Origin: Acidisoma sp. PAMC 29798
Lineage (GTDB): Bacteria > Pseudomonadota > Alphaproteobacteria > Acetobacterales > Acetobacteraceae
Direction: 5' to 3'
NCBI RefSeq assembly: GCF_030252425.1
Contig: NZ_CP126994.1
Location: 3,529,001 to 3,593,000 of the forward strand
Length of the DNA stretch: 64,000 nt
Made by a program: the position numbers and the translations under genes. Positions 10,854 to 35,917 of this stretch are shown piece after piece. Position 1 is the stretch's first letter; each line of letters begins with the position of its first letter. A model generated the notes under the pieces. The model was not told the origin of the DNA, did not search any database, and saw only the letters and a program-made list of their open reading frames with translations.

Positions 10854-10861
10854 TCTCGTGG

Positions 10862-14072: not shown

Positions 14073-14076
14073 GGAC

Positions 14077-14145
14077 GGCGGAAGACGCTGCGCTTTTCCG
14101 CCCTACAACGCCTCCGTAGGGCGGAAAAGCGCAGCATTTTCCGCC
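14077..14145. repeat. Dispersed palindromic repeat, copy 1
   Basis: A perfect 20-bp inverted repeat (14087-14106 with 14116-14135) around a nine-base loop, flanked by outer arms GGCGGAA/TTCCGCC. It begins four bases after the barrel gene's stop and ends seven bases before the convergent wza-like stop. The core TTTTCCGCCCTAC is shared with the copy at 47884-47952. Likely an intergenic palindromic repeat that also acts as a two-way terminator. Confidence 0.85.
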
Positions 14146-14152
14146 AGAAAGA

Positions 14153-14755: not shown

Positions 14756-14821
14756 TTTTAATTTTGCCCGGGTTGTCGAAATGCACGCACGGCATAGGAT
14801 CTGTGCTGAAACAAGACGCTG

Positions 14822-16677: not shown

Positions 16678-18140
16678 GGTGTGACGCTATCCATTTCTCT
16701 GCTGGGCGTTCGCGCGGGGGCGAGATGCCAGGTGCGCGCAGATGCGCGCGGCCTCTGCCCCGGGGAACGCTGTTCCGTGACGATGCGGGCGGCCGTTCCG
16801 ACGACGCAGCCCAATTGAAGAAAGAACGCGAGGGAGCCGATGGTCGGTGCCGACAGCAAGGCCGCCGCCAATTGACCGCACAAGGCTGCGGTGAAGCCAT
16901 CGACCACGATCTGGCCCTGATGGCCGCGCGATACAGCGCCGGCCCTGCGGACCAGCCGGGCCAGGCGCCAGCCGAGCAAAACGACCATCAACACGCCGAA
17001 CACCCCGGCATTGGCCAAAAGCCCTGGCAGCAGGCTAGACGCGCGGAAGCTGCCCCAGCCGACGCCTAAACCATCCGTCTGGCCGATGGTCGCGACCGCC
17101 GAGGCATCAAGGCTGCTGCGGTCGGTGTAGGATTGGCTATCGCCCTTCGACATGGTCGAGGTGATCACGGTCTGCACCGAATCCATCAGTGACGGTTTCA
17201 TGATGAAGGCGGGCACCAACACGAGGCTACCCACCACGGCCATGACGCCCGCGGTTTTCAGCAGTCGCGCCAAGGCTGTGCGATCGCCCCGTGCAGCCGT
17301 GAAGATCAGGATCACCGGCAGGCCGACGGCGAGCGTCAGTAGCCCCGTCGTCGATGTCGACAGCAGCATCGCGAAAATGGACAGCCCGAGCAGGATATTG
17401 ACGCGCATGATGCGATGGCCATGCGCAGTCAACCACAGGCAGCAGAAACACAGGCCGGACAGATAGAAGGCCAAGCCTGCGGGTTCCGAGAAGGTGCCTT
17501 GCACGCGCGGAACCGAGCCCAGCGCTTGAGCCACGATCGCCCAGCCGGGATTGGAATAAATCACGTCGCTCGGGAAGGGCAAGCCCGCGATCCGTGACGC
17601 GAATTGCCAGAAAGCAATCCCGACCGCGATATAGCCGCCGAGCAAATAGGCCTTCATCAGCTTGCGATACGGAATGGCGTGACGCGTCACCAGCAACGCC
17701 GCGCAGGTCGCCACGCCGACGTTCATTGCCAGATACATCGATTGCGTGATGTTGCCGGAGTTGAAGGCGAGCGGAACATAGCCTGGGTTCAGCAAATCCG
17801 GCCGTTGCGGCCAGACCATGATGGTGCCCTGGAAGGTCTGCGGCAGGATCATCACCGACACCAGGGCATAGGCCAGAAGGGCGAAGAGCGGCAGCATGGT
17901 GGACAGCACCTGCCCTTCGCCGGGATAGCGCATGCCGAGGGCGTATTGAGCTGTCACATAGGTGACGAACAGCAGACCCGGCACCATCGCCGGCGGCAGG
18001 CCGAAGCTTCCGCCCAAAACCAGCGCTGCCCCGGCTTCGAAGATCGCCGCGACAAAAGCGAGCTGGAGCAGGCGCACAGGGTTGGCCGCCCACAGCAAGC
18101 TGAGCGGTATCAACACCAGGCCGAGGGCGGTCGGATGCAT
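16674..18140 (-). CDS. Wzy/O-antigen-ligase-like EPS polymerase
   Basis: A 488-residue inner-membrane protein with about eleven hydrophobic segments and a long periplasmic loop (roughly TFIMKPSLMDSVQ to GWGSFRASSLLP). Loops of this type hold the working Arg/His residues in Wzy and WaaL proteins. Sequence conservation in this family is low, so the call rests on topology and context: it lies between the wzc-like gene and a glycosyltransferase. ATG 18140 follows the upstream TAG by four bases and is preferred; ATG 18170 or 18233 would overlap the autokinase gene. It should polymerise flipped repeat units in the periplasm. Confidence 0.75.
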   Translation of the reverse strand: MHPTALGLVLIPLSLLWAANPVRLLQLAFVAAIFEAGAALVLGGSFGLPPAMVPGLLFVTYVTAQYALGMRYPGEGQVLSTMLPLFALLAYALVSVMILPQTFQGTIMVWPQRPDLLNPGYVPLAFNSGNITQSMYLAMNVGVATCAALLVTRHAIPYRKLMKAYLLGGYIAVGIAFWQFASRIAGLPFPSDVIYSNPGWAIVAQALGSVPRVQGTFSEPAGLAFYLSGLCFCCLWLTAHGHRIMRVNILLGLSIFAMLLSTSTTGLLTLAVGLPVILIFTAARGDRTALARLLKTAGVMAVVGSLVLVPAFIMKPSLMDSVQTVITSTMSKGDSQSYTDRSSLDASAVATIGQTDGLGVGWGSFRASSLLPGLLANAGVFGVLMVVLLGWRLARLVRRAGAVSRGHQGQIVVDGFTAALCGQLAAALLSAPTIGSLAFFLQLGCVVGTAARIVTEQRSPGQRPRASARTWHLAPARTPSREMDSVTP

Positions 18141-18144
18141 CCGT

Positions 18145-20424
18145 CTACGCTCGGTTGGGGCGATAGCCATCGTAATGGCTGAATGCATAGGACATCCGGC
18201 CACCCGAAATGGCGGCGGTGCCGAGATCGACACGCGTCATGACCACACCCATCACGGATGATCCGCTGCCGCGCAGCAAGCGCGCGGCGTCTGAAACGGC
18301 GGCGCGCGCCGTCTTCTCCCACCGCACCACCAACAGGGTGGTGTCGGCTTGCTGCCCCAGCACCAAGGCGTCAGCCACCGGCAGCACCGGGGGAGTATCC
18401 ATGATGACAAGGTCATATTGCGCGCGCACGTCCTTCAGCAGGGCCTGCATGCGCTGGGATGCCAACATCTCCTGCGAATCGCTCTCGTTCCGGCCCGCAA
18501 GAATGACATCGAGATTGCGTCCCGGATTGCGGACGAGGTTCTTCGTATCGCCGAGGGATTTGCCGGACAGAATCTCGCACAGGCCAGGACCGGCGGGCAG
18601 ACCGAGATAGCTGCCAAGCGACGGCCGGCAGAAATCGCATTCCAGAAGAAGCACGCGCCAGCCAACCGCCGCCATGTTGCGGGCCAGTTCCACCGCAAAG
18701 ACGGACTTGCCTTCCTGCGGCAGCGCCGAGGTCACCATCACCAGGCGGGGACGATCCCCGCCGAGCAGACGCATTTGCCCGCGCAACCTGTCGAGAGACG
18801 CCGCCATCGCGACATCGCCCTTGCCTTTGCGATGGCGCAGAAACTTGCCATGGCGAATCTTGGGTATCATCGCCAGCAGGGGCAGGCCGAGCGTGCTCTC
18901 CACCTGCTCCGGCAGGCTGAATCCGCTGCGCATCCGCTCCATCAGGCAGGCGACCCCGACACCCAGAGCGAGTGACAGCATGGCGGCAATCGCCATCAAT
19001 CGCGTGCTCTGCGGACCGGACGGGCCAATCGGCGGTTGAGCACTGGAAACGAGCGACGCATCCGGCTCCTGAATGCCGGCGACATTCGCAAGCTGGGCTG
19101 CGCGCGTCAGGAAGCTTTCGTAAATCTTCCGCGTGGCCGAAGCCTGCGTCTCCAGCGTGTTCAGACCGACCTCAGCCGAATTCTCACCACTGACGGAGCC
19201 GCGCAGTGTCTCCATCTGCTGTTGCAGCGCCCTCTGCTGCGCTTCGCCCGCCGCGACCTGCACGGCAAGGCTGCCCGCCACATGGGCCATCTGCTGCTGC
19301 GTCCGTGTTTGCAACCGCGCGAGCTGCGCCTGCACAGCCAGCAGTTCGGGGTTATTGGCGCCTTCGGAGGCGGCAAGCTGCGCTTCCCGCCCAGCCACTG
19401 CAGACTGCTCGGACAGCAGCTGCGCGACGAGGGGCGATGCTAGCACAGAGGGAAGATTGCTGGTCGATGTGCCGCCGCTCAGTGCCGCTTGCGCCTGCGT
19501 GAGCTCACCCTGCTTCTCGGTCAAATCGCGAGAGACCGCCACGAGTTGTTGACTGATGGCATCGAGTTGCTGCCGATTGACGGTCGGTGTGCCGGCAGCG
19601 TTATCGCCCGTCGTATCGGCGATCTGCTCGCCCAGGCCGTGGGTGAGGCGATATTGTTCCACCGCCTGATCGTCCGCGCGAACCTCGCTCGCAAGGGATG
19701 TCACCTGGCCCTGAAGCCAATCATGGGCGCGCTGCATCGCCGAGAACTTCTCTTCGACCTTAAAGTCGAGAAACTGCTTCGCAACCTCATTGGCGATCTG
19801 CGCACTCAGCACAGGATCATGGGTCGTGACCGAAACAGTCAAAAGCCGTGATTGCGCGTCATTGGCGAAGCTTATCTTCCCGCCGAGCATATCGGCGGCC
19901 ATATTCTGCTTCTGCTCCGCCGTCGACGCCGTCACCAAGGGTGCCGGCATCAATCCGAACTTCTGGCCGTAGGTCTGAATGAGACCCTTCAGCTGTGACA
20001 CGGGGCCGCCTTTGCCCGGCATGAACTCGGGGTCGTTCACCAAATTCAGGGACTTCACAACACCGAGAGCCAGTGCCGGAGAACTGAGGATGCCGATTTG
20101 CGTGCGCATCAGGCTCGCCACCTCCTCGGAATCGGAGGAAATGGCTTGCAGATCGCTGACCTGCGTGCGCTGCGGTTCAATGATGATGGAGGCATCGGCC
20201 GTATATTGCTTGGCCATGCCCTTCACGATCATGACCGTACCGCCCACACCGATGACGAAGGTGAGGATGATGATCCAAAGGTGACGCCGTAGAATCGACG
20301 CCACGCGGCCGAACGGAACCGCCACCGGCTCCAGCCCTGCACTGGGATCGGCCAGTTCTACCTGAAGATCATGCGCCCGCGACTGCGTCAGTGCGTAGGG
20401 CCGCTCGATTTTTGCGTCGTGCAT
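18145..20424 (-). CDS. Wzc/GumC-type polysaccharide co-polymerase with tyrosine-kinase domain
   Basis: A 759-residue inner-membrane protein that controls polymer length and couples to the outer-membrane exporter. Membrane helices are at about 49-67 and 474-494, with a periplasmic Wzz/GNVR region rich in coiled coil (about 225-440) between them. The cytoplasmic BY-kinase has Walker A SALPQEGKS (566-574), Walker A' VLLLECDFC (591-599) and Walker B LVIMDTPP (672-679). The C-terminus carries three tyrosines (746, 751, 754), a short version of the autophosphorylation cluster. First gene of the five-gene minus-strand operon. The divergent intergenic region to 20652 should hold its promoter. Confidence 0.93.
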   Translation of the reverse strand: MHDAKIERPYALTQSRAHDLQVELADPSAGLEPVAVPFGRVASILRRHLWIIILTFVIGVGGTVMIVKGMAKQYTADASIIIEPQRTQVSDLQAISSDSEEVASLMRTQIGILSSPALALGVVKSLNLVNDPEFMPGKGGPVSQLKGLIQTYGQKFGLMPAPLVTASTAEQKQNMAADMLGGKISFANDAQSRLLTVSVTTHDPVLSAQIANEVAKQFLDFKVEEKFSAMQRAHDWLQGQVTSLASEVRADDQAVEQYRLTHGLGEQIADTTGDNAAGTPTVNRQQLDAISQQLVAVSRDLTEKQGELTQAQAALSGGTSTSNLPSVLASPLVAQLLSEQSAVAGREAQLAASEGANNPELLAVQAQLARLQTRTQQQMAHVAGSLAVQVAAGEAQQRALQQQMETLRGSVSGENSAEVGLNTLETQASATRKIYESFLTRAAQLANVAGIQEPDASLVSSAQPPIGPSGPQSTRLMAIAAMLSLALGVGVACLMERMRSGFSLPEQVESTLGLPLLAMIPKIRHGKFLRHRKGKGDVAMAASLDRLRGQMRLLGGDRPRLVMVTSALPQEGKSVFAVELARNMAAVGWRVLLLECDFCRPSLGSYLGLPAGPGLCEILSGKSLGDTKNLVRNPGRNLDVILAGRNESDSQEMLASQRMQALLKDVRAQYDLVIMDTPPVLPVADALVLGQQADTTLLVVRWEKTARAAVSDAARLLRGSGSSVMGVVMTRVDLGTAAISGGRMSYAFSHYDGYRPNRA

Positions 20425-20545
20425 CGGTCGCTATACCTTAACTAACCACCCTCGGGTTCCGACGAGTGATGCAGACCTCTTAGCACCCTTGCCCCAAGTC
20501 TCTCGATCAGCCCTGTGGTTAAGGGCGCGCCAATGACTACGCATT

Positions 20546-20584
20546 TTGGCTAGGTCGACGTGCCATGCGTGAAACCCTAGCCAA
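20546..20584 (+). promoter_or_regulatory. Nine-bp inverted repeat between wzc-like and GT2 genes
   Basis: TTGGCTAGG (20546-20554) and CCTAGCCAA (20576-20584) are perfect inverted copies separated by 21 bases, centred about 88 bases upstream of the GT2 start. The centre-to-centre spacing of 30 bases, about three helical turns, would suit a looped dimer operator; an RNA hairpin is also possible. Confidence 0.4.
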
Positions 20585-20639
20585 TCGTCGTGGTCCGATG
20601 ACAACCGCGTAGCAAAGCGCGGTTGAGCGGCATTCTTCT

Positions 20640-20645
20640 AAGGAG
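20640..20645 (+). promoter_or_regulatory. Strong Shine-Dalgarno that sets a TTG start for the GT2 gene
   Basis: AAGGAG at 20640-20645 sits seven bases before the TTG at 20653. The residues after that TTG (ALTIVVGIPT) begin the conserved first strand of GT2 enzymes, so this codon, not the upstream 20623 start, is the likely start. Confidence 0.8.
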
Positions 20646-20652
20646 TTTCACT

Positions 20653-21525
20653 TTGGCGCTCACGATCGTGGTCGGCATCCCCACCGTGGGCCGCGCGTCG
20701 ATCCTTCGCGATACCCTGGTCGCGCTCGCCCAGCAGACACGTCCCGCCGACCGCACCATCGTCTGCGGCAGCAAGCCTGCGGACGTCGCCGGTGCCACCA
20801 CCGTTGCGGGTGTCGAGGTCGTGATGGCGGAGGCCGGCCTGCCCCGCCAGCGCAACGCCCTGATCGCAGCCTCGGGCGACGCGGACGTCATGGTTTTCTT
20901 CGACGATGACTTCATTCCTGACCCCGGCTATCTCGCGGCGATCGAACGGCACATGGAACAAGACCCGACGCTTGCTGTCGCCACCGGGCACGTGCTCGCG
21001 GACGGCATCGGCGGACCTGGCTTGACCTTGCAAGCAGCCGAGCACGCCATCGCCGCCGGCATGTCCGGCACGCGCGGCGCCACGCCGGTCTTTTCGGGAT
21101 ACGGCTGCAACATGGCGGTGCGGCTGACGATGATGCGTGCGCATCAGCTCTGGTTTGACGAGCGTCTGCCGCTGTATGGCTGGCAGGAAGACGTCGATCT
21201 GTCCCGTCGCATGGCGGCGTTCGGGACAGTGATGCGGATCGAGGACGCGCGTGGCGTTCATCTCGGCACCAAGCAGGGTCGCAACTCCGGCGTGCGACTG
21301 GGCTATTCGCAAGTTGCCAATCCGCTCTATCTCGCTGGCAAGCGCGCCGGCTATCCGCTCGGTCGCGCTCTGGAACATATCGGCCGGAACGTCGCAATGA
21401 ATATCGCTCACTTCCCGCGCCCCGAGCCCTATGTCGATCGGCGTGGACGCCTGCGGGGCAATCTGCTCGCCCTTCGCGATCTCATCAGCTGCCGTATGGC
21501 GCCGGAGCGTGTGCTCTCGCTCTAA
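20653..21525 (+). CDS. Glycosyltransferase family 2 (GT-A fold)
   Basis: A 290-residue inverting glycosyltransferase. It opens with TIVVGIPTVGRASILRDTL, the family 2 nucleotide-binding strand. The metal-binding DXD region is VMVFFDDDFIPDP, and the acceptor-side motif is LPLYGWQEDVDLSRRM with the presumed catalytic Asp of the ED/ExD motif. The start is TTG with a strong upstream AAGGAG. It is divergent from the wzc-like operon, and its 3' end overlaps the convergent GT4 gene by four bases. The C-terminal segment (GRALEHIGRNVAMNIAHFPRPEPYVDRRGRL split by helices) suggests membrane-surface association. It likely contributes a repeat-unit sugar. Confidence 0.85.
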   Translation: MALTIVVGIPTVGRASILRDTLVALAQQTRPADRTIVCGSKPADVAGATTVAGVEVVMAEAGLPRQRNALIAASGDADVMVFFDDDFIPDPGYLAAIERHMEQDPTLAVATGHVLADGIGGPGLTLQAAEHAIAAGMSGTRGATPVFSGYGCNMAVRLTMMRAHQLWFDERLPLYGWQEDVDLSRRMAAFGTVMRIEDARGVHLGTKQGRNSGVRLGYSQVANPLYLAGKRAGYPLGRALEHIGRNVAMNIAHFPRPEPYVDRRGRLRGNLLALRDLISCRMAPERVLSL

Positions 21526-22688
21526 TGCGGCAGTGACGCGACGGCCGGCGCCGTCACCACCGGGAATTGCGGCATGACAGTCGAAACGCTTTCAAGGGCC
21601 GCTGCCGCCATCCGCGCGTAAACCGCCGGCTCGCCGTGCAGCATGCGCAAGCCTTCCGCCGCGGCCGTCACATCCGGTTCCGCCCAGGTGCTGCCTTGAT
21701 AGATAGCGGCGGGATCTTGGACCGCGACGAGTTCGTACGGTACAAGAACGCTATTCGCTTCGGTTGTGAAATCGACGTTTCCGGACCAGCCCGTCGCGAC
21801 CACCGGTATGCCCCTGGCCAATGCTTCGAGCATCGGCAGACCGAAGCCCTCTGCGCGGTGCAGCGACAGCAGCACATCGGCACGCTCATAAAGGGCGGAC
21901 AGGCCCGCATCATCGAGATGCGCGCGAATGATTTCGATGTTGGCCGCACGAACCTCCGCGCCCAGCATTGCGGTGAAGGCCTCGACTTCATCATCACGCC
22001 CTGAGAGCTTGAGAAGAAGGCGCGCGGAAGGGGACGGACCGAAGGCGGCCACGAAGGCCCGCACGGCCCCCGCCGGATTCTTCCGTGACAAGCTGGACCG
22101 CGTATCCGCCATGGTGAGGACCGTGAACGGGCCGCGCGCATCGCGCACACGCGCCGGCTGGGGGCCAAGGTAATGCGGCACCACAATGACCGGCTTGCGG
22201 ATCAATCGGCGCAGGCTCGTCTGGGAAAAGACGCTGGGCGTCCACACTTCATCGACATTGGAGTCACAACCCGCCCAATCCTGCGGCGGATCCGGAAGCT
22301 CCCAGGCCCAATAGGCGATCCGATAAGCCCGCGCGGCCTGGGGCAGCACACTGCCGATCAAGGCGGCCGTCTGCGGGCCGCCGGAGTGGAAGATATAGAC
22401 CGAACCCGCCTGGTGCTTCACCCGCACCAGGGGATTGCGCAAGGCCGCCGTCGCATCGAGAAGTTCGACATCGATCCCCAAGCGGCGAAACGCGTCCCAT
22501 TGGAGATAGGCGCCACGGGTGATGCCGTTCTGCTTACCGAGGGCGGCGACGATGATCACGCGGCTGAACACCCGCTCACCCGAGCGACCACCGATCAATC
22601 CCTGTGTCAGCATCGCATTGCCGGCGAGGTAGGTGTCCATCAACGCGCGCTTGAGGCCGCGACCTGTCGCCGCAATCGGTGATCTCAC
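21522..22688 (-). CDS. Glycosyltransferase family 4
   Basis: A 388-residue GT-B enzyme. The nucleotide-sugar site is HRAEGFGLPMLEALARGIPV with both EX7E glutamates, and the interdomain region is FTVLTMADTRSSLSRKNP. The N-terminus VIIVAALGKQNGITRGAYL resembles the glycine loop of GT4 acceptor domains. The GTG start at 22688 has AGGAAG nine bases upstream. The LuxR-type regulator gene ends only 12 bases before this start, so the two are probably one transcript. The 3' end overlaps the convergent GT2 gene by four bases. Confidence 0.82.
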   Translation of the reverse strand: MRSPIAATGRGLKRALMDTYLAGNAMLTQGLIGGRSGERVFSRVIIVAALGKQNGITRGAYLQWDAFRRLGIDVELLDATAALRNPLVRVKHQAGSVYIFHSGGPQTAALIGSVLPQAARAYRIAYWAWELPDPPQDWAGCDSNVDEVWTPSVFSQTSLRRLIRKPVIVVPHYLGPQPARVRDARGPFTVLTMADTRSSLSRKNPAGAVRAFVAAFGPSPSARLLLKLSGRDDEVEAFTAMLGAEVRAANIEIIRAHLDDAGLSALYERADVLLSLHRAEGFGLPMLEALARGIPVVATGWSGNVDFTTEANSVLVPYELVAVQDPAAIYQGSTWAEPDVTAAAEGLRMLHGEPAVYARMAAAALESVSTVMPQFPVVTAPAVASLPH

Positions 22689-22700
22689 AGGATCTACTTC

Positions 22701-23396
22701 CTAATTCGCCTCGGCGTCGCCGTCCGTTGCCTGCGCATCGCTCTCATCGCGCGCGCTCGCATGGGCTTTGAAGGCCGCTTGCGTTCTGTTCGAGGCGCCC
22801 ATCTTACGCATGATATTGCGAATATGCACCTTCACGGCGCTTTCGCTCATGCTCAGGTCCCGCGCGATCACCCGATTGGCCTTGCCCTGCTTCACTTCGG
22901 CCAAGACCGCGATCTGACGCGACGTCAGCAGGTCGCTCGGTTCAGACTCGGTTGCGGTGATCGGTTCGGGTTCCGTCGTCAGGAGAAGGTCGAGGGGGGC
23001 GAAGGTGCCACCGGCCTCCACGAATCTCAGCGACGCGACGGCCATCAGGGCGCTCGTCGTCCGTGTGCAGATATAGCCATTCGCGCCGCTGCTGAGCGTG
23101 TCGCGAATGGCCTTCCGCTGCACACCTTCGTTGGCATCAGACAGAACAACGATTGGCGCGTCACTGAACATTTCACGCAAGGACGCGACGTCACTCGACA
23201 AATTGATGACGTCGGAATGTGCGTAATAGAGAATAAGACCCCAATCGGCATCCGGCACCGCCGTGACACAGCTTTCCAACGTCTCATAAGGCTCGATCGC
23301 AAGCGATGGCTGTAGGGAAACCAGTGCGTCCATAACGCACTCGCGCGTCAGACGGTGACTGTCTATCCAGGCAACGCGAAGAGGGTTGGCACTCAT
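22701..23396 (-). CDS. LuxR/NarL-family regulator with degenerate receiver domain (paralogue 1)
   Basis: A 231-residue transcription factor. The C-terminal GerE helix-turn-helix reads LTSRQIAVLAEVKQGKANRV then SMSESAVKVHIRNIMRKMGA. The N-terminal domain has receiver-like length and strands (VAWIDSHRLTREC, IVVLSDA). The phosphoacceptor position is Tyr58 instead of Asp, and the conserved Lys after the fifth strand is Thr111 (GYICTRT). Phosphorelay control is therefore unlikely. ATG 23396 is preferred; a GTG at 23417 adds seven residues. The gene lies 12 bases upstream of a glycosyltransferase, so control of EPS genes is a natural inference. Confidence 0.85.
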   Translation of the reverse strand: MSANPLRVAWIDSHRLTRECVMDALVSLQPSLAIEPYETLESCVTAVPDADWGLILYYAHSDVINLSSDVASLREMFSDAPIVVLSDANEGVQRKAIRDTLSSGANGYICTRTTSALMAVASLRFVEAGGTFAPLDLLLTTEPEPITATESEPSDLLTSRQIAVLAEVKQGKANRVIARDLSMSESAVKVHIRNIMRKMGASNRTQAAFKAHASARDESDAQATDGDAEAN

Positions 23397-23583
23397 CAGC
23401 TCGGTCTGCACTCGCACATAGGAAAAAGCTTCCGAAACGTTCCAGGTCCTGTTTCATCGAATAGGATATTCGCGGTCGCCCGCCAATCACTCGCGCCATA
23501 CCAACAATTGCTAAATTGCTTCATCGCTAGGGGTACGAGATGAGGTGTTGGTGCCCCTATGTTCGCGCGAAAGCGAGACCCTC

Positions 23584-24693
23584 ATGTCTATGTCGATTTC
23601 GACGCCTTGGCTTGTAACCCTTCGAGATAGACTCTTGGGTGATCAGATGAGACAGAATTCGTCGAGCACCAAGCAGGCGCGTTTCTCACCCTTCGTGACG
23701 CCGCGCGATGGTATGACGCCGACCCGTCCAGTGCCTCTGGCCACGGATGCCGCCGCCCGTCCGACCCGCGGCACGCTTCCCGTAGCGACCCTCTTCCATG
23801 AGCCCTGGTGGCTGGAAACGGCGACCGATGGCACGTACCAGGAAGCACGGGTATATGCCGATGGCGCGGTCATCGGGCGACTTCCCTATATGATATCGAA
23901 GAAGTTCGGCCGGCAGACGGCACTGGTCATGCCGACCATGACGCATGTGCTCGGCCCATCCCTGACGACCGACCTCGCGGGCAGCCGGCTGACGCGGTCG
24001 CTCAAGACCGTCTCGATCTGCGGCGATCTGATCGCCCAATTACCCCCTGCATCGCATATCTGGTTCGAATGCCATGGCCAGACGCCTGAGACTGTGGCGT
24101 TCGAATCCGCCGGGTTTTCGTCCGGTGTGCGCTTCACGATCGAAATCTCGCCAGAGCCGGTGGAGGCTCTGTGGCGCCAGATGCGCGACAAGACACGCAA
24201 CGTCATTCGTCGCGCGCAAGAGACGCTGACGGTCGAAGAAGTGGTCGATCCGAACCACTTCCTGAACTTTTACGAAATCAATCTGCAGAAACGGGGGCTG
24301 CGCAACAATTATGACCGGCGCCTCTGCGGAAACCTCATGGCGGAGGCCATTCGGCGTGGCGTCGGCCGCTTGTTGGTCGCCACCGACGCGTCAGGCGTCC
24401 TGCAATCCGGAATCTTCACCGCCTGGGATGGTCGTTCGGAATACTACCTGATGTCGACCCGCTCGCCAGAGTCCGGTAACGGGGCCACCAGCCTGCTCAT
24501 CTGGCATGCCATTCAGCGTGCCGCGTCGGCCGGTCTAACGTTCGATATGGACGGGGTTCACGGCAAGAAGAATTTTACGCTTCTCGCCGGCTTCGGCGGT
24601 GTCCTGAAACCACGCTACTTCGTGAGCCGGACATCGGCGATGTTTCAGGTGGCGCAGTATATCAAGAGTGGCTTGGTCGGCCGCGCCAGCTAA
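23584..24693 (+). CDS. FemAB/GNAT-fold acyltransferase-like protein
   Basis: A 369-residue protein of the BioF2/FemAB-like GNAT group often encoded in EPS loci. Recognisable parts are LFHEPWWLETAT near the first third, then MRDKTRNVIRRAQETLTVEEV, YEINLQKRGLRNNYDRRL, and GATSLLIWHAIQRAASAGLTFDMDGV near the end. The Arg-rich segment and the GNGATSLL acyl-carrier loop are typical. It may acylate a sugar or transfer an amino-acyl group to the polymer. No signal peptide is seen. Starts at 23584, 23590 or 23647 are all possible; similarity begins well after them. Confidence 0.7.
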   Translation: MSMSISTPWLVTLRDRLLGDQMRQNSSSTKQARFSPFVTPRDGMTPTRPVPLATDAAARPTRGTLPVATLFHEPWWLETATDGTYQEARVYADGAVIGRLPYMISKKFGRQTALVMPTMTHVLGPSLTTDLAGSRLTRSLKTVSICGDLIAQLPPASHIWFECHGQTPETVAFESAGFSSGVRFTIEISPEPVEALWRQMRDKTRNVIRRAQETLTVEEVVDPNHFLNFYEINLQKRGLRNNYDRRLCGNLMAEAIRRGVGRLLVATDASGVLQSGIFTAWDGRSEYYLMSTRSPESGNGATSLLIWHAIQRAASAGLTFDMDGVHGKKNFTLLAGFGGVLKPRYFVSRTSAMFQVAQYIKSGLVGRAS

Positions 24694-24718
24694 GCGGCGG
24701 CCGCCGGAACGTGCAGAC

Positions 24719-24738
24719 CCGGCGCCTTCCGGCGCCGG
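24719..24738. terminator. GC-rich hairpin between convergent genes
   Basis: CCGGCGCC (24719-24726) and GGCGCCGG (24731-24738) form a perfect eight-bp stem with a TTCC loop. It lies 25 bases after the acyltransferase-like stop and four bases before the regulator stop on the other strand. No T-run. Confidence 0.5.
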
Positions 24739-24742
24739 ATCC

Positions 24743-25504
24743 TCAGTCCGCCGCCATCATGGCTTGGACGTTGTCAGGGCAAAACTTCAGGGCATTGAAC
24801 GCGGCCTGCGTGCGGTTGGTTGCACCCATCTTGCGCATGATATTGCGGATGTGAACCTTCGCCGTGCTCTCGCTCATGCCAAGCTCATGAGCGATGATCT
24901 TATTGGCGCGGCCTTGCTGAAGCTGGGCCAAGACATCCTTCTGACGCGCCGTCAGGCGATAAGGCGAGGCTGGCTCTTCCACCGCCGCGACGGGCGCAGA
25001 CGGCTCAGACAGAAGAACCTCGAGGGGGGCGAAGGTTCCGCCCGCCTGGACGAAGCGAATGGCGGACAGCGTCATCGACAGGCCTGTGGTGCGCGTCGAT
25101 ATGAACCCATTGGCGCCAGCCTTCAGCGCGCCACGAATGGTATTCAGCTGATGGCTGTCTTCCAAATCCGACAACATGATGAGGCGGGCATCCTGGAAAG
25201 CCTCACGCAGAAGCTCAGTCTCGCGGATGCAGACCTCATAAGACGAATGCGAATACAGGATGATGAGGTCGAACGCGACGTCCTTGCTGTCCATGCACTC
25301 TTTGACAGAGGCAAAGGCCAGAACACCAGGAACCAGCTGTAAATCGGACATCGCCCGCAGGATGCACTCGCGCGTCAGCGAATAGCTGTCGATCCACGCT
25401 ATCTGCATTCCAAGTGCGGGCGGACGATGATCCGTCATCGCGGGCACAGAGATGATCGGTTGGATGGCCGAGTCACATTCGTTCGATGCATTGCCTCGAA
25501 GCAT
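24743..25504 (-). CDS. LuxR/NarL-family regulator with degenerate receiver domain (paralogue 2)
   Basis: A close relative of the genes at 22701 and 25691. The DNA-binding domain (LTARQKDVLAQLQQGRANKI, then SESTAKVHIRNIMRKMGATN) is almost identical in its recognition helix. The receiver keeps the first acidic residue (IAWIDSYSLTREC), but the phosphoacceptor position is Tyr (LIILYSHSS) and the usual Lys is Thr (FISTRTTG). I prefer ATG 25504 because AAGG lies nine bases before it; ATG 25525 and 25537 are in frame. An inverted repeat (25532-25545) covers the 25537 start. It is convergent with the acyltransferase-like gene. Target genes are not known. Confidence 0.82.
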   Translation of the reverse strand: MLRGNASNECDSAIQPIISVPAMTDHRPPALGMQIAWIDSYSLTRECILRAMSDLQLVPGVLAFASVKECMDSKDVAFDLIILYSHSSYEVCIRETELLREAFQDARLIMLSDLEDSHQLNTIRGALKAGANGFISTRTTGLSMTLSAIRFVQAGGTFAPLEVLLSEPSAPVAAVEEPASPYRLTARQKDVLAQLQQGRANKIIAHELGMSESTAKVHIRNIMRKMGATNRTQAAFNALKFCPDNVQAMMAAD

Positions 25505-25690
25505 TTGGTTAAGCCTTTCAGTCATGTCAGTGAGCATATGTGCTCGGTCACGCCTTACCTAGCGTAGGTTTAGGAAATTTGCAGCGGGAGTACACCCTTT
25601 TGTCTATGCATTACGCTAAGACCCAAAAGTCGTAGTGAATTCCATCCCACTGAAATAATTACGGAAGATGCTATGCGGTCATGGTGTCCA

Positions 25691-26440
25691 TCATCTTTCC
25701 GGTATCTTCGGGCCGGTTTCCACCACCGTAAGGCGCTCCACATTGAAGGCCGCCTGGGTCCGATTCGTCGCGCCCATCTTTCGCATGATGTGGCGCACAT
25801 GAACTTTGACCGTGCTCCCACTCATACCCAGCTCGTAGGCAATGGTTTTGTTGGCCTTGCCTTGCCTGACGAGGGCGAGCACTTCGGTTTCGCGCTGCGT
25901 GAGCCGATGCGGTTCGGCGTAGCCTTGCCGAACCTGGGGCCGCGCGACACCGCTCGGCTCTTCCATCAAAGCCTCTCGCGGCAAAAAGGTTCCGCCTGAA
26001 CCAATCAAAGCAATCGCCGAGACCAACATCTGAAGCCCGGCCGTTCTGGTTGAAATCAGGCCGGACGCGCCATGCGCCATCACCTGCCGCACGACGGCAA
26101 GTTCGATTGTGACAGCATCCGAAAGAACCACCAGCCGGGCGCCCACGAACCGCTCGCGCAGCAGAGCGAGTTCCTCGGTAATGACGTAGTCTGACTCATG
26201 CGAGTGATAGACGATCAGATCTATGTCGGCGCCGACATGCCGCAGGCAATCAGCCGTAGAATCGAAAGAGATGATCACGAACAGCGGGCGTGTCTTGGCA
26301 AGCGCCATCGTTATGCATTCGCGCGTCAGGCGCGATGCATCGATCCAGCCGACGCTGACGATCCCGGAGGATGCATCGACCGCATGGTCAGACTCGTCCT
26401 GCCTGACGGGTGCGGCTTGGCGCTGTGCGGAAGCGACCAT
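25691..26440 (-). CDS. LuxR/NarL-family regulator with degenerate receiver domain (paralogue 3)
   Basis: A 249-residue third paralogue. The HTH reads LTQRETEVLALVRQGKANKT then SGSTVKVHVRHIMRKMGATN. In the receiver-like domain the strand VGWIDASRLTREC keeps one acidic residue. The phosphoacceptor position is His (DLIVYHSHES), and the strand-five Lys is Thr (LISTRTAG). The C-terminus ends soon after the HTH. It lies 187 bases upstream of paralogue 2 on the same strand, with a separate intergenic region, so independent promoters are possible. Two short palindromes upstream (26575-26588, 26607-26620) may be operators. Confidence 0.82.
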   Translation of the reverse strand: MVASAQRQAAPVRQDESDHAVDASSGIVSVGWIDASRLTRECITMALAKTRPLFVIISFDSTADCLRHVGADIDLIVYHSHESDYVITEELALLRERFVGARLVVLSDAVTIELAVVRQVMAHGASGLISTRTAGLQMLVSAIALIGSGGTFLPREALMEEPSGVARPQVRQGYAEPHRLTQRETEVLALVRQGKANKTIAYELGMSGSTVKVHVRHIMRKMGATNRTQAAFNVERLTVVETGPKIPER

Positions 26441-26812: not shown

Positions 26813-27034
26813 CTAGGACCGCGCCTTAGAGGCGTCGGTGCGCCGGCGCGTCTTTGGCCGCGCATTCGCGACAAGCCCTTTCTCCAGCGCCTGCAACCAA
26901 CCGGCGCGCCATGCCTTGTACTCGACCGTACCGGCCTCATAGGGGTTGCGGCAGGTGGCTTTTCCCTGCCAAAAAGCCATCATTCCCTCACTGAGAAAGA
27001 GGCTTCGAACAAGTTCCGGGTTTATGCTGGCCAC
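26813..27034 (-). CDS. Ribosome-modulation-factor-like small protein
   Basis: A 73-residue basic protein. The central segment AFWQGKATCRNPYEAGTVEY followed by KAWRAGWLQA has the layout of the RMF family: A-x-x-G spacing, an NPY core and a W-x-x-GW-x-x-A end. RMF in gammaproteobacteria inactivates 70S ribosomes as 100S dimers in stationary phase; alphaproteobacterial members are less studied. The C-terminal tail (KTRRRTDASKAR) is strongly basic. The GTG start at 27034 has GGAG upstream; Met17/18 would give a shorter form. It is a single-gene unit. Confidence 0.65.
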   Translation of the reverse strand: MASINPELVRSLFLSEGMMAFWQGKATCRNPYEAGTVEYKAWRAGWLQALEKGLVANARPKTRRRTDASKARS

Positions 27035-28052: not shown

Positions 28053-29366
28053 TTAGAACGCCAGCAGGTTGTCTCTAAACTGCGTGTGTTCGTAGCTCGT
28101 GCGGACCAGCCCGCGCTGCTGCAAGGCCGGCACCAGACCGTCCGTGATCTCCGCGACGCTGCGGCGGCTGACATTGGGAAGCGCAATCAGATAGCCGTCT
28201 CCGCCAATTTCCTGCATGACCTCGTCCATCTGCGCGGCCACCGTCTCCGGCGTGCCCACCAGATCGACGCTGCCACCACTGCCGCTATACGCGATGATCG
28301 CTTCCCGCAGCGTGTTCTTGCCCGCCTTGCGCAGGAAACCCGCCAGGGTCGATTGATGGCCGTTGGTAGACAGTTCCCCGACCGGGGCATCGAGGTCGTG
28401 GCCGGAAAAGTCGATGTTCGTCACCCAGCCGAGCTGCGCCAGCCGCTCATCGATATTTTCGGCCGCGGAGATGCCCCGCTGCGCCGCACGGTCCTGCGCT
28501 TCGGCGTCACTGCTGCCAAGGATCGGATAGACCATGAACAGAATTTTGCAGCTGTCGGGGTTGCGCCCGGCCACCGCCATCTGGCTGCGCACGTCCCGGC
28601 GATACTCCTTCATCGCCTCGATCCCCTTCGGGTGGGCGACGATGGTGTCGGCGTATTTGGCAGCCGTCGCGCGGCCACGGGCCGAGCCGCCGGCCTGGGC
28701 GATCACCGGCCGGCCCTGCGGCGCGGGGCCGGAGTTCAGCGGGCCCCGGCTCGACCAATACTGGCCCTTGAAGTCGATGGTATGGACCTTCTCGGGGTCG
28801 ATCAGCACGCCGCTCTTGCGGTCGGCGAGGATCGCCCCGGGCTCCCAGGAATCCCAAAGCTGGGTCACGATGTCGATATACTCGCCGGCCATGTCATAGC
28901 GCAGGTCGTGGTCGGGCAGGTGATCCAGCCCAAAATTCTGGCCCGAATAGTCCGAGCTTCCGGTCACCATGTTCCAGCCGGCGCGGCCGGCCGAGATCTG
29001 ATCCAGCGTGCCCACGATGCGGGCGGTCAGATAGGGGTGATAGGCGAAGGTGGACAGCGTCGGCACCACGCCCAGGCGCTTGGTTGCGGCGAGCATGAGG
29101 GACGCGATGACCGACGGTTCCTGCCGAGGAACGGACATACCGTTCTTCAGGAAGATGTCGCGCCGGTTTTCCCAGTTTTGACCGATATAGATCGAGTCTT
29201 CGAGCAGAATATAATCGAAGGCTGCCCGTTCCAGGGCGCGCGCGACGTCGAGGAACATGTCCGCCGACATCCACTCCTCGCTGATATTTCCGGTCCATGG
29301 CTGGCCCCAGGCCTGAACGCTGGAGCCTTGGAGGAACCAGGCGAGGTGAAATTGATCGGCAGCCAT
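28053..29366 (-). CDS. LLM-class flavin-dependent monooxygenase (NtaA/SnaA/DszA family)
   Basis: A 437-residue luciferase-like monooxygenase that should use FMNH2 supplied by a separate reductase. Family marks are FHLAWFLQGS at the start, SDMFLDVARALERAAFDYILLEDS-type helix, TLSTFAYHPYLTARIVGTLD, and GRAGWNMVTGSSD, all typical of the nitrilotriacetate/dibenzothiophene-sulfone/pristinamycin group. Members oxidise N- or S-containing organic compounds. It is the last gene of the BMP-ABC/amidohydrolase array, 116 bases after the amidohydrolase stop. No FMN reductase is encoded nearby. The substrate is unknown; the neighbours suggest an imported N-heterocycle. Confidence 0.85.
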   Translation of the reverse strand: MAADQFHLAWFLQGSSVQAWGQPWTGNISEEWMSADMFLDVARALERAAFDYILLEDSIYIGQNWENRRDIFLKNGMSVPRQEPSVIASLMLAATKRLGVVPTLSTFAYHPYLTARIVGTLDQISAGRAGWNMVTGSSDYSGQNFGLDHLPDHDLRYDMAGEYIDIVTQLWDSWEPGAILADRKSGVLIDPEKVHTIDFKGQYWSSRGPLNSGPAPQGRPVIAQAGGSARGRATAAKYADTIVAHPKGIEAMKEYRRDVRSQMAVAGRNPDSCKILFMVYPILGSSDAEAQDRAAQRGISAAENIDERLAQLGWVTNIDFSGHDLDAPVGELSTNGHQSTLAGFLRKAGKNTLREAIIAYSGSGGSVDLVGTPETVAAQMDEVMQEIGGDGYLIALPNVSRRSVAEITDGLVPALQQRGLVRTSYEHTQFRDNLLAF

Positions 29367-29482
29367 CGATAGAACTCTCCGTCAGAAACAGGGCTGAGCG
29401 CCCCGATGCTCATGACAGAGGCAAGAGCCGGGCCATCCAAAACGCGTGGCTGCAAAACTTGTCCGCGTCGCCAGTGCCCGCG

Positions 29483-31009
29483 TTATGAACGAATGAACCG
29501 GTCGATGCCCAGGGGCGCGTTGCCGACCCTGCGATTCGCCTCAAGCAAGTAAGCGACCGCTGGGGCATTTGCCTGCGTCACTTGCGCGAAGTCGCGGCGG
29601 AACCCGAGCATGACATCGGCCAGCTCGGCGCGGAACTGATCCTCGTCGATCGTCGTCAGCTTGCGGTTCCGCATGACGATCACGCCATCGACGATGGTGG
29701 TCTCCACCCCGCGCCCTGTCTCGCTATAAACGAGTTGCCGCGCGACACTGTTCAGCGGCATCCAGGCGATATCGGTGAGGTCGATCAGGCAAAGATCGGC
29801 GCGCATGCCGGGCTTGATCGCACCCACCACATGCTCCAGCCCAAGGGCGCGGGCGCCGCCCAGGGTTCCCGCCTCGATGGCATGGGTGGCGTGAAGGCCG
29901 GCCGGGCTCGGGTCCGTCACGGCCGCCAGGGTGCAGAACAGCTTCATCGCCTGGAACACGCTCTGGCAATCGCCGCAGCTGCAATTGTCACAGCCCAAGG
30001 CCAGGTTCACCCCGGCGTCGTGCATACGACGAATGGGCGCGACGCCGCTTTTGAGCTTCAGGTTGCTCATCGGGTTATGCACCACGCTGGCCCCGCTTTC
30101 GGCCAGCATGGCAATTTCCTCGTCATCGAGCCAAACGCCATGGGCAAGGGTCGTGCCTGGCCCCAAAAGCCCTAGGGACGCCATGTAGCGGATCATCGAT
30201 CCGCCATGCGCGGTATAGAGGCTTTGTGCCTTGGCGCGCTGCGCCGGGGTTTCCAGAACATGCGTGGTCACCGGCAGGGAATGCCGCTGCGCCATATCGA
30301 CGATACCCTCCAGCAAGGTCGCGGAGGAGCGTTGCGGGCCGGAAGGGCTGAGCGCCCAATGCAAGCGCGACGGTAGTGGAGCAAGGCGCGCGATCTGGCG
30401 CTCCACGAAGGCGAGATCCGCATGCGGGTCGCGCGGCGATCCCTCCACCAAGGCGCGCACGCTTTCGGGCAGATCGGCCGCCATGAAGGGCGCGATGTCG
30501 AGCGCTGCCACATCGCGCAACGCGATGGAAAAGACGACGCGAATGCCGACTTCGGCGAAGGCCGCCAAAGTCACGTCCAGCGTTTCCTCATCCATCGGCA
30601 CGAGAGAATTCATGTCCTGCACGGTGGTGATGCCGTGCTTGAGGCATTCGATGGCGCCGACCAGCGTGCGGGCGCGAATTTCCGCCCGGCTGCGCTTGCC
30701 GAAATAGGCGGGCTGGGAATGCAGCGCCCAGACGTCGAAGGGCATGTCTTCCAACAGGCCCTTCATCAGCCCGTCATAGGAATGGAAATGGGCATTGACG
30801 AAGCCCGGCATCAGCAGCCGATCCGTCGCCTCCAAGACCTCGGGCGCGGGCTGCGCCGCGAGCCATGTCGCCGTCAGCGCATCGCCCGGCGGCAGCACGG
30901 CGGCGATCGTCGTGCCCTCGATCAGCACATCACGCCGGCTCGGCGCATGCACGTCCCCCTCGGGGTCCCAGACCTGGGCACCCAGGATCACTAGGCGATT
31001 CGGCGTCAT
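29483..31009 (-). CDS. Amidohydrolase-superfamily deaminase/chlorohydrolase (AtzA/TrzN/SAH-deaminase-like)
   Basis: A 508-residue metal-dependent hydrolase. The mononuclear metal site is visible: HFH in MPGFVNAHFHSYDG, His in PVTTHVLET, His in LAHGVWLDDEE and Asp in ALGCDNCSCGD. Subtype III amidohydrolases of this kind remove amino or halide groups from purines, pterins and triazines. The N-terminal beta-sandwich (LVILGAQVWDPEG) and C-terminal DLCLIDLTD strands complete the fold. Its ATG overlaps the ATPase stop by four bases (ATGA), so it is part of the transporter operon and probably acts on the imported compound. Confidence 0.85.
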   Translation of the reverse strand: MTPNRLVILGAQVWDPEGDVHAPSRRDVLIEGTTIAAVLPPGDALTATWLAAQPAPEVLEATDRLLMPGFVNAHFHSYDGLMKGLLEDMPFDVWALHSQPAYFGKRSRAEIRARTLVGAIECLKHGITTVQDMNSLVPMDEETLDVTLAAFAEVGIRVVFSIALRDVAALDIAPFMAADLPESVRALVEGSPRDPHADLAFVERQIARLAPLPSRLHWALSPSGPQRSSATLLEGIVDMAQRHSLPVTTHVLETPAQRAKAQSLYTAHGGSMIRYMASLGLLGPGTTLAHGVWLDDEEIAMLAESGASVVHNPMSNLKLKSGVAPIRRMHDAGVNLALGCDNCSCGDCQSVFQAMKLFCTLAAVTDPSPAGLHATHAIEAGTLGGARALGLEHVVGAIKPGMRADLCLIDLTDIAWMPLNSVARQLVYSETGRGVETTIVDGVIVMRNRKLTTIDEDQFRAELADVMLGFRRDFAQVTQANAPAVAYLLEANRRVGNAPLGIDRFIRS

Positions 31010-32550
31010 ATTGAGTCCTTCGTCAGGAGAGAACTGTCCGCAAGGCCCGCCATGGCGCGCCCGACGGTGGCGCGCGCGGCCGGATCGGCCGTGGTCTCGA
31101 ACACCAATCGGCCTTCGAACATCACCACGATCCGGTCGGACAGCGCGAAGATCTCATCGAGATCCTCGCTGATCAGCAGCACGGCCGCGCCGCCATTGCG
31201 CGCAGCCGTGATGTCATCATGAATCCGCGCGACCGCCGCAAAGTCGAGTCCGAAGCAGGGGTTGCTCGCGAGCAGAAGGTCGCAGCCCGGCCCCAGCTCG
31301 CGTGCCAGAACAAGCCGCTGGATATTGCCGCCCGACAGGGCCGAAACCGGCTGGCGCGGCCCGCTGGTGCGGATACGGTAGTCGCGGATCGCGGACTGCG
31401 CGCCCTCGGTGATGGCGCGTTTGGACAGAAGGCCGAAGCGGCGGCGGATCGGCGGCCGATCATACTGCCGCAGGGCCAGATTCTCGGCCACGCTCATGGT
31501 GGCGACGCAGGCGCTATGCAGCGGCTCTTCCGGCAGGCAGGCGACCCGCAGCCGCGCAAGCGAACGGCGCGTCGGGCGAAAGGCCTCGCCATGGACATGA
31601 ACGGTTCCCGCCACGATGGCGCGCTGACCGGCCAGGGCTTCCGCCAATTCGCGCTGACCATTGCCGGAAACGCCGGCGATGCCCAGGATTTCCCCGCCCG
31701 CAACAGTCAGGTCAAGGTCGCGCACCGCCGCAAGCCCGGCATCGCCCAGCACCGTCAGGCCATGCGCGCGCAATTGGTTGGTGCTGGCTTGCGGCACGGC
31801 AGCGCGCGCGACGCTGCGGCCGATGCCCGCTTGCCCGACCATCCGCTCGGCGAGGTCGGCGGCATTCATCTGGCCCGCCTCGGCGGAGGCCACCACACGC
31901 CCGAAGCGCAGCACCGTGACATCGTCCGCGAAGGCCAGCACTTCGCGAAACTTATGGGTGATCAGCACCACGGTGATCTCCCCGGCGCGCGTCAGGTCGC
32001 GCAGCAGGCCCAGGGTCTCATCCGCCTCGGCGGGGGTCAGCACGGAGGTCGGCTCGTCCAGCACCAGCAGCCGGCGCCGCAAGTGCAACTGCTTGAGGAT
32101 TTCCACCTTCTGCTTTTCGCCCGCCGCCAGGGACGCGACAGGCGCGTCCAGCGGCACCCGGAAGGGCATCGTCTGCAACAGCGCCCCAAGCTCCGCCCGA
32201 TAGGCGTGCCAATTGATGGCGAAGGGAATGTCGGCGCGGGCGAGCATCAGGTTCTCGGCGACCGTCATCTCCGGCACCAGCGTAAAATGCTGGTAGACCA
32301 TGCCGATGCCGGCGGCATGGGCCTCGCGTGGCGTCCTGCTGCGGTGCTCGCGCCCATCGATCAGGAAGCTGCCGGAATCGGCGTGATAGGTGCCCATCAG
32401 GCACTTCACCAGCGTGCTCTTGCCGGCGCCGTTCTCGCCCAGAAGGGCGTGGATGCGGCCTGGACGCACCTTCAGGGAGACATCGTCTAACGCCAAGACC
32501 GCGCCGAACCGCTTGGTGACGCGGATCGCCTCCAGGGACGCCGCCGTCAT
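31006..32550 (-). CDS. ABC transporter double ATPase (nucleoside/BMP-type, NupO/YufO-like)
   Basis: A 514-residue cytoplasmic protein with two fused nucleotide-binding domains. The first has Walker A GENGAGKST, signature SLAAGEKQKVEIL and Walker B LLVLDEPTS. The second is degenerate in the P-loop (GVSGNGQRELAEAL) with signature ALSGGNIQRLVLARE, a pattern normal for CUT2/BMP-type importers. ATG 32550 is preferred: it overlaps the upstream permease stop as ATGA, and the 60-residue upstream extension has no ATPase similarity. Its own stop overlaps the amidohydrolase start. It powers the two permeases upstream. Confidence 0.93.
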   Translation of the reverse strand: MTAASLEAIRVTKRFGAVLALDDVSLKVRPGRIHALLGENGAGKSTLVKCLMGTYHADSGSFLIDGREHRSRTPREAHAAGIGMVYQHFTLVPEMTVAENLMLARADIPFAINWHAYRAELGALLQTMPFRVPLDAPVASLAAGEKQKVEILKQLHLRRRLLVLDEPTSVLTPAEADETLGLLRDLTRAGEITVVLITHKFREVLAFADDVTVLRFGRVVASAEAGQMNAADLAERMVGQAGIGRSVARAAVPQASTNQLRAHGLTVLGDAGLAAVRDLDLTVAGGEILGIAGVSGNGQRELAEALAGQRAIVAGTVHVHGEAFRPTRRSLARLRVACLPEEPLHSACVATMSVAENLALRQYDRPPIRRRFGLLSKRAITEGAQSAIRDYRIRTSGPRQPVSALSGGNIQRLVLARELGPGCDLLLASNPCFGLDFAAVARIHDDITAARNGGAAVLLISEDLDEIFALSDRIVVMFEGRLVFETTADPAARATVGRAMAGLADSSLLTKDSI

Positions 32551-33464: not shown

Positions 33465-33477
33465 GAGCCGGACCCTG

Positions 33478-35708: not shown

Positions 35709-35917
35709 GGGAGAACGGCTCCGGCAGTGACCCGGCCAATTCCAGGGAAAATACGCAATGCAATGCCTATGCCTAAGCCAATCTTGCAAACGCCTCGATA
35801 GGGATTGTATCGGTGAAAGACAAAGTCCGATCCAAGGTCGCTGATTTGCCTATTGTTTAGGCCGTTCGTGCCGGTCGTTGGGTCTGGCAATCGGTTCGAG
35901 ATAAAGGACTCCGCAGC

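Follow-up and report, generated by a model that had tools for sequence, protein, structure and literature searches.

How can three regulators of the NarL/LuxR type, which lie beside an exopolysaccharide (EPS) gene cluster, be controlled when the residues for phosphotransfer are missing from their receiver domains? This question is raised by a stretch of 64 kilobases (kb) from Acidisoma sp. PAMC 29798 (contig NZ_CP126994.1, positions 3,529,001 to 3,593,000), which belongs to a genome of 4.99 megabases and is called the window here; positions are counted from its first letter. The three genes, referred to below as the trio, are the following:

22701-23417, minus strand: P0001, NarL/LuxR-type regulator with a pseudo-receiver, 238 amino acids
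24743-25537, minus strand: P0002, NarL/LuxR-type regulator with a pseudo-receiver, 264 amino acids
25691-26440, minus strand: P0003, NarL/LuxR-type regulator with a pseudo-receiver, 249 amino acids

According to our sequence analysis, the three regulators are members of a pseudo-receiver family of Alphaproteobacteria that is often found near EPS genes. We estimate a probability of about 0.6 that P0001, P0002 and P0003 are phosphorylation-independent dimeric paralogues which control the adjacent Wzc-type EPS cluster independently of a histidine kinase. Their pairwise identities are 48, 49 and 43% over 207-213 columns, and BLASTP expect values (E) of 3e-67, 1e-65 and 1e-53 indicate that the paralogy is not due to chance; these values and the coordinates of the open reading frames (ORFs) bear out the three LuxR paralogues reported in a preliminary description of this DNA. 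The GerE helix-turn-helix (HTH) was the sole Pfam family above cut-off in all three proteins, the receiver domain gave no Pfam match at E up to 1, and none of the NCBIfam matches listed exceeded its curated cut-off (top score of 67.4 bits versus 390).

The residues of the receiver were read from an alignment to E. coli NarL (K-12 record), the numbering of which was verified. The column of the phosphoacceptor Asp59 is occupied by Tyr65 in P0001, Tyr95 in P0002 and His79 in P0003, and the column of Lys109 by Thr118, Thr148 and Thr131, respectively, within the motifs CTRT, STRT and STRT. The first residue of the acidic pair is retained (Asp19, Asp50 and Asp34) in the N-terminal motifs WIDSHRLTREC, WIDSYSLTREC and WIDASRLTREC, and the second is replaced by Ser, Ser and Ala. 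The Thr/Ser position is still Ser and is followed by Asp (Ser93-Asp94, Ser123-Asp124 and Ser107-Asp108); in addition, a cysteine is present in helix alpha-1 (Cys27, Cys58 and Cys42) and a histidine at D+2 (His67, His97 and His81). The preliminary description had listed Tyr, Tyr and His as phosphoacceptor residues, Thr instead of Lys and a single N-terminal acid in WIDxxxLTREC; all of this agrees with the NarL alignment, which puts no Asp at the phosphorylation site. Since the Asp and Lys residues of phosphotransfer are lost, phosphorylation of the trio by a histidine kinase seems very unlikely.

Structure prediction, proposed earlier as a check, gave a receiver fold followed by an HTH in the AlphaFold models of P0002 and P0003 (predicted local distance difference test values of 84.2 and 85.1), the two members of the trio that were modelled. 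The Foldseek matches of the P0002 model included LiaR, spr1814, VraR, EvgA, RcsB, VpsT, NarL and FixJ. The trio therefore shares with NarL, LiaR/VraR and RcsB the receiver fold, as modelled for two members, and the GerE HTH, but in contrast to NarL/FixJ regulators it has no phospho-Asp, Lys or second acid and possesses the alpha-1 cysteine and an acid at T+1. A further difference from NarL/FixJ two-component regulators is the absence of a partner kinase gene from the window: none of the 33 HATPase_c matches of the genome falls within it, and the two closest lie at distances of about 190 and 240 kb, so that a kinase, if any, would be encoded far away. Among the ten other GerE matches of the genome, five have an HATPase_c match, either adjacent (near 1516183, 4501759 and 3163593) or encoded in one long frame with the GerE domain (3957946 and 2346500).

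In lacking key phosphotransfer residues, the trio resembles the known pseudo-receivers and Asp-less receivers (PMC4395418; PMC12632262; these papers, as well as PMC4125116 and PMC5829831 below, are cited from excerpts). The usual pattern among pseudo-receivers is the loss of the second acid with retention of the first, and the loop from T to T+2 is generally enriched in acidic residues (PMC12632262); because of this enrichment, the T+1 acid fits a wider trend. The main text of this review of 2025 does not use the labels DD+7 and DD+8 (PMC12632262).

The sample of related proteins was fetched by recognition-helix patterns and yielded 125 non-redundant aligned rows. Of these, 92 scored at least 115 bits with the trio profile and are treated as family rows (25 in an Acetobacteraceae-type branch and 67 in other branches), and 13 rows of the alignment are canonical. 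Neither the phosphoacceptor Asp nor the conserved Lys occurs in any family row (0/92 for each). Among solved structures, the family profile matched NarL best (1.2e-31). The PF00072 receiver model recovered 10 of 82 family members at E 1e-3, so surveys based on this model probably miss most of them. A search with the trio profile in 200 genomes of the bacterial family gave matches in 25 at E 1e-20, canonical relatives included; one genome (G179) had 13 such matches, and the family, perhaps together with canonical kin, is thus more abundant there. A class-wide count of 95 of 289 genomes at E 1e-30 was rejected, as the profile also recovers canonical regulators. No published description of the family was found among the literature matches listed, which covered few subscription journals. 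The TRT letters, suggested earlier as a search signature, are indeed shared by the trio but within the family are limited to 10 of the 25 Acetobacteraceae-type rows; the other 67 rows mostly have Pro-Thr (41) or Pro-Ser (10).

The preliminary account of the receiver was correct as to the lost residues but overlooked the wider family and two of its nearly invariant features. The alpha-1 position (NarL Gly21) is Cys in 89 of the 92 family rows and in 49 of the 51 rows that are at most 50% identical, ranking with the Gly, Ala and Pro columns at a mean receiver identity of 31%; none of the 13 canonical rows has it (Ala in nine, Gly in two, Ser and Val in one each). Asp or Glu at T+1 shows the same distribution (90/92, 49/51 of the non-redundant rows and 0/13 canonical). 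In a class-wide sample of 80 fetched places, 79 of them usable, the canonical rows had the cysteine in 0/69 and an acidic T+1 in 4/69 cases. Among the six rows without both D and K, four had both marks, one the acid alone and one neither; of two Asp-only rows one had both marks and one the acid alone, and both Lys-only rows had the acid alone. At annotated loci outside these samples, Pararhizobium and two copies of Sinorhizobium meliloti (2 and 3) had both marks, S. meliloti copy 1 had neither, and the Azospirillum copies had T+1 Asp in 4/4, the cysteine in 1/4 and Ser in its place in 3/4. Over the first 125 rows, the cysteine occurs in 93 of the 105 rows without both D and K. By sequence, the alpha-1 cysteine is thus a strong lineage mark, non-universal because of the three Azospirillum copies with Ser.

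This distribution (89/92 family rows versus 0/13 canonical rows; 4/6 rows without D and K versus 0/69 canonical rows class-wide) could point to a thiol or redox switch, in which the cysteine (Cys58 of P0002) would sense oxidants or bond subunits and thereby alter dimerization and EPS expression. RcsB receivers dimerize partly via helix alpha-1 (PMC5829831), and RitR and HP1021 are pseudo-receiver transcription factors with a functional cysteine (PMC12632262), a role that is putative in the trio. Their cysteine, however, lies in a linker or at DD+19, whereas that of the family lies at DD1+8 in alpha-1; the Cys-ALR group of Maule differs again in having Cys at the Asp position (PMC4395418). A thiol mechanism is not favored by the Ser present in three of the four pseudo-receivers that Azospirillum encodes next to sugar genes, nor by the lack of a second cysteine conserved family-wide (Cys81 is found in 20 of the 25 Acetobacteraceae-type rows alone). 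Moreover, canonical relatives mostly hold a small residue (Ala, Gly or Ser) at this position, and a packing role of the cysteine is therefore possible. Overall, we regard the thiol switch as unlikely.

The old phosphorylation pocket shows a different pattern of conservation. In the 25 Acetobacteraceae-type rows, the D+2 residue is His in 25, T+1 is Asp in 24 and the Lys column is Thr in 24; the Asp column contains either Tyr (18 rows) or His (7 rows), and in the other 67 rows its commonest residues are Cys (16), Asn (14) and Tyr (12). For 20 non-redundant rows of this branch, 152 of 20,000 random column sets were as conserved as the five classic pocket columns, and 2 of 20,000 when D+2 and T+1 were added (seven columns); in a first run on six columns, which excluded the second acid, the figure was 0 of 20,000. 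Over the 51 non-redundant family rows, the pocket was no better conserved than the remainder (3974 and 2597 of 20,000 random sets were as conserved). The term degenerate used for these receivers is misleading, since in the Acetobacteraceae-type branch few parts of the receiver are as well conserved as the old pocket. The receiver appears to have been remodelled and not just to have decayed.

Such conservation would be expected of a ligand or metal sensor, in which the rebuilt pocket (first Asp, Tyr/His, D+2 His, Ser-Asp and Thr) would bind a metal ion or a small molecule, for instance an EPS precursor. Ligand-binding pseudo-receivers such as JadR1, RedZ and ShkA are on record (PMC12632262), but the pocket is not specially conserved over the 51 non-redundant rows, and the D+2 His is fixed in the Acetobacteraceae-type branch alone. 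A sensor of this kind is, in our view, rather unlikely.

VpsT and CsgD are LuxR-type regulators of the biofilm matrix, and VpsT carries the cyclic di-GMP (c-di-GMP) motif W[FLM][TS]R. A Foldseek match of the P0002 model to VpsT (3kln, E 1e-8) would suit a VpsT-like c-di-GMP sensor. The motif, however, is absent from P0001, P0002 and P0003, and phmmer with P0002 reaches VpsT solely in the HTH part; c-di-GMP sensing by the trio is accordingly very improbable.

If the input is not a phosphate, the next point is the target. The EPS cluster adjoined by the trio, the gene order of which (10862-18233, minus strand) is similar in relatives, and the neighboring genes are as follows:

10862-12685, minus strand: sugar-1-phosphate transferase of the EPS cluster (domain-profile match)
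14153-14755, minus strand: Wza-like export protein of the EPS cluster (domain-profile match)
14822-15595, minus strand: SLT lytic transglycosylase of the EPS cluster (domain-profile match)
15592-16677, minus strand: second GT4 glycosyltransferase, EPS cluster (domain-profile match)
16674-18233, minus strand: putative Wzy of the EPS cluster (Wzy_C match weak and below cut-off)
18145-20424, minus strand: Wzc-type chain-length determinant/tyrosine autokinase (NCBIfam matches under curated cut-offs)
20623-21525, plus strand: GT2 glycosyltransferase, divergent from wzc (domain-profile matches)
21522-22688, minus strand: GT4 glycosyltransferase directly downstream of P0001, probable operon
23545-24693, plus strand: FemAB/GNAT-type protein between P0001 and P0002 (domain-profile matches)

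The 12-base gap between P0001 and the GT4 gene (22689-22700) was as described earlier, and the proposed cotranscription of the two genes is plausible because of this gap and because the LuxR-GT4 adjacency is kept in relatives, namely at loci L001, L002 (genome G5_19), L003, L004 (A. silvae), L007 (A. cellulosilyticum) and L010 (Acidisphaera). The order P0003-P0002-P0001-GT4, then Wzc, Wzy and GT4, is retained in L002, L004 and L007. In L002 and L007, a GT2 gene separates GT4 from Wzc; L004 has no GT2 match, and, unlike in the window, no FemAB match was found between the LuxR genes in these three loci. Two LuxR genes are present in L001, and one LuxR-GT4 pair each in L003 and L010, within the same cluster. 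In a tree of 49 rows, in which support was uneven (19 of 46 inner branches starred), P0001, P0002 and P0003 formed three ortholog clades, each with proteins of L002, L004 and L007; the A. silvae and A. cellulosilyticum orthologs of P0001 are on a long branch, and P0002 has the shortest end branch of the trio. This tree supports the local expansion that the preliminary description had assumed. Most simply, a single ancestral regulator gene next to a glycosyltransferase gene would have been duplicated twice within the Acidisoma lineage.

Similar arrays exist elsewhere. On pSymB of S. meliloti (L117/L118), three adjacent response-regulator genes lie beside dTDP-rhamnose and O-antigen-translocase genes, with an additional export gene by them in L118; copies 2 and 3 belong to the pseudo-receiver family, and copy 1 groups outside. 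SMb21329 was rejected as a member of this array, one paper listing it as a hypothetical exported peptide. A Hint-domain gene is located just past the array (L117/L118). A plasmid of Azospirillum sp. TSH58 (L119) carries four consecutive response-regulator genes, which adjoin genes for nucleotide sugars and glycosyltransferases; none of the four encoded proteins has the Asp or the Lys. In the tree, the Sinorhizobium and Azospirillum groups are separate from the Acidisoma expansion. FlcA of Azospirillum brasilense, an orphan regulator of the LuxR-UhpA type that governs flocculation and cyst-like differentiation, may be compared with the family, as a lead only.

The retention of three paralogues as ortholog clades, together with the adjacent and codirectional arrangement of P0003 and P0002, suggests that the regulators may be constitutive, partner-exchanging modules. 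The receiver would then serve as a dimerization domain, and control would be exerted through the amounts of the paralogues and the homo- or heterodimers formed at each promoter. Precedents are provided by BldM/WhiI and RcsA/RcsB, likewise orphan or auxiliary LuxR-type regulators, of which WhiI has a degenerate pocket and RcsB controls capsule synthesis (PMC4125116). The trio differs from them in comprising three paralogues inside an EPS locus, and its heterodimers are putative. Partner exchange alone leaves the nearly invariant cysteine and T+1 acid unexplained; we consider it a serious candidate with somewhat less than an even chance.

The association with EPS loci proposed earlier is borne out by the synteny described above and by neighborhood counts. 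These are based on 79 family loci from the best 80 of 555 confirmed places in a contig scan, a sample that leans to P0001-like members because the places were ordered by similarity to P0001. EPS-type genes were detected near 45 of 79 family loci (8/17 Acetobacteraceae-type and 37/62 other) versus 1 of 14 further GerE-type loci, which come from the same bacterial family and include 12 with canonical receivers. The EPS queries were supplied by the window and by three annotated loci of the pseudo-receiver family, so that this comparison favors the latter. An EPS-type gene closely behind on the same strand was found for 13 of the 88 LuxR hits counted, and 8 of these genes were Wzc-like, at most 50 bases behind the LuxR gene.

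The tyrosine autokinase encoded in the EPS cluster raises the possibility of an alternative phosphorylation, in which the Tyr or His that replaces the phosphoacceptor Asp would be a phosphosite, for example for this Wzc-type kinase. Such a role would be compatible with the restriction of that column to Tyr (18/25) and His (7/25) in the Acetobacteraceae-type rows; the mixture of mostly Cys, Asn and Tyr in the other 67 rows speaks against it. The eight loci with a Wzc-like gene directly behind hold Asn (3), Cys (2), Gly (2) and Ser (1) in this column, and non-kinase modification at the Asp position was undescribed in 2015 (PMC4395418, excerpt). Phosphorylation at the substituted residue is, consequently, extremely improbable.

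If the trio controls the cluster, binding sites should lie in its spacers. The preliminary description had concluded from nearly identical recognition helices (KVHIRNIMRKMGASN in P0001, KVHIRNIMRKMGATN in P0002 and KVHVRHIMRKMGATN in P0003) that operators may be shared or competed for. Our analysis does not support this step: the recognition helix is about 77% identical across the family, the members of which were fetched by helix patterns, and its likeness therefore says little about shared operators. A GCTAGG word in three spacers, as a shared candidate operator, is better though modest evidence:

20425-20622: GT2/wzc divergent spacer, candidate operator with the inverted repeat TTGGCTAGG...CCTAGCCAA at 20546-20584
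23418-23544: P0001/FemAB divergent spacer, candidate operator with GCTAGGG at 23526-23532
25538-25690: P0003-P0002 spacer, candidate operator with GCTAGGT at 25557-25563, minus strand

GCTAGG/CCTAGC was the top word among the 6-mers common to at least three of four locus spacers, which contain four of its six copies in the window. Of 500 random sets of four other spacers, 4 matched this result and 22 matched that of the best 5-mer; no 7-mer qualified. The inverted repeat occurs in the GT2/wzc spacer and nowhere else in the genome as a pattern; the corresponding spacer of L007 retains TTGGCTAG...CTAGCCAA, L002 and L004 hold a related block, and L003 has CTAGCCAAAAT 117 bases ahead of its LuxR gene. 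No exact gapped palindrome was found in more than three of 50 upstream regions of seven loci, and the ACTAGT and CTAGTC variants showed no clear pattern. A palindromic motif search that beat its shuffles (four per width) was set aside, as its score was inflated by repeated counting of the divergent GT2/wzc spacer and of orthologous spacers. The CTAG tetramer is strongly depleted in the whole window (38 copies versus about 211 expected from base composition).

Taken together, the trio would consist of paralogous transcription factors of the NarL/FixJ fold that control the adjacent Wzc-type EPS cluster and probably their own genes too. We infer that they bind CTAG-core sites in three spacers (GT2/wzc, P0001/FemAB and P0003/P0002), either as homodimers or as heterodimers. 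Activity would be set by abundance, by partner exchange among the paralogues and/or by a non-phosphate input, and not by a histidine kinase; this input would be read by the remodelled receiver through the alpha-1 Cys, the first Asp, the T+1 Asp, the D+2 His and the Thr that replaces Lys.

Several observations weigh against control of the EPS cluster by kinase-independent regulators. No EPS gene was detected at 34 of the 79 family loci (9 of 17 of the Acetobacteraceae type); therefore, either the family is not restricted to EPS or the query set is incomplete. Five of the ten other GerE matches of the genome are likewise without a nearby kinase domain, so that the absence of a kinase is not peculiar to the trio. 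The GCTAGG word was spotted by eye ahead of the test, GCTAGGK is not enriched window-wide (5 found versus 6.6 expected), and it has no copy in L002, L003, L004, L007 or L010. The enrichment of CTAG in spacers (19/96) depends on L007 (10) together with the window (4) and is shared by TTAA and AATT.

The on-off switching of bacterial pseudo-receivers was still called a mystery in 2025 (PMC12632262, excerpt). The family described here offers a testable signature (one cysteine and one relocated acid), a likely output (the adjoining EPS genes) and candidate binding sites, and some of its members occur in bacteria that are easily handled in the laboratory, S. meliloti among them. It also adds a pseudo-receiver group that PF00072-based surveys probably overlook for the most part. 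We tentatively suggest, as a quite uncertain generalization, that it may represent a class-wide, undescribed, EPS-linked family in which the phosphate switch has been replaced by a thiol- or ligand-gated input site that switches EPS synthesis. This site would comprise the T+1 carboxylate, mostly the alpha-1 Cys and, in the Acetobacteraceae type, the D+2 His, and its copies would have multiplied separately in Acidisoma, Sinorhizobium and Azospirillum beside polysaccharide genes. If this is true, slime production in soil and plant-associated bacteria would be tied to a signal that does not come from a kinase.

Some further features of the window were noted. Divergent from the sugar transferase gene, 12636-14072 (plus strand) encodes a beta-barrel porin of the BBP2_2 family (PF10082, E 2e-40), possibly the outer-membrane component of the EPS system. 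On the other side of that gene, an ORF of 494 amino acids (9525-11009, minus strand) gave no Pfam match at E 1e-3 and resembles, by eye alone, a secreted protein of the glycoside-hydrolase type. Upstream of P0003, an ORF of 73 amino acids (26813-27034, minus strand) has a sub-threshold match to the ribosome modulation factor (PF04957, E 7e-6; 26.4 bits versus a cut-off of 27.9). Finally, a codirectional run on the minus strand (28053-35789) encodes a luciferase-like monooxygenase, an amidohydrolase, an ABC ATPase and a PnrA/Bmp-type binding protein, with two intervening ORFs that appear permease-like by eye, and is perhaps involved in nucleoside or purine uptake and breakdown.

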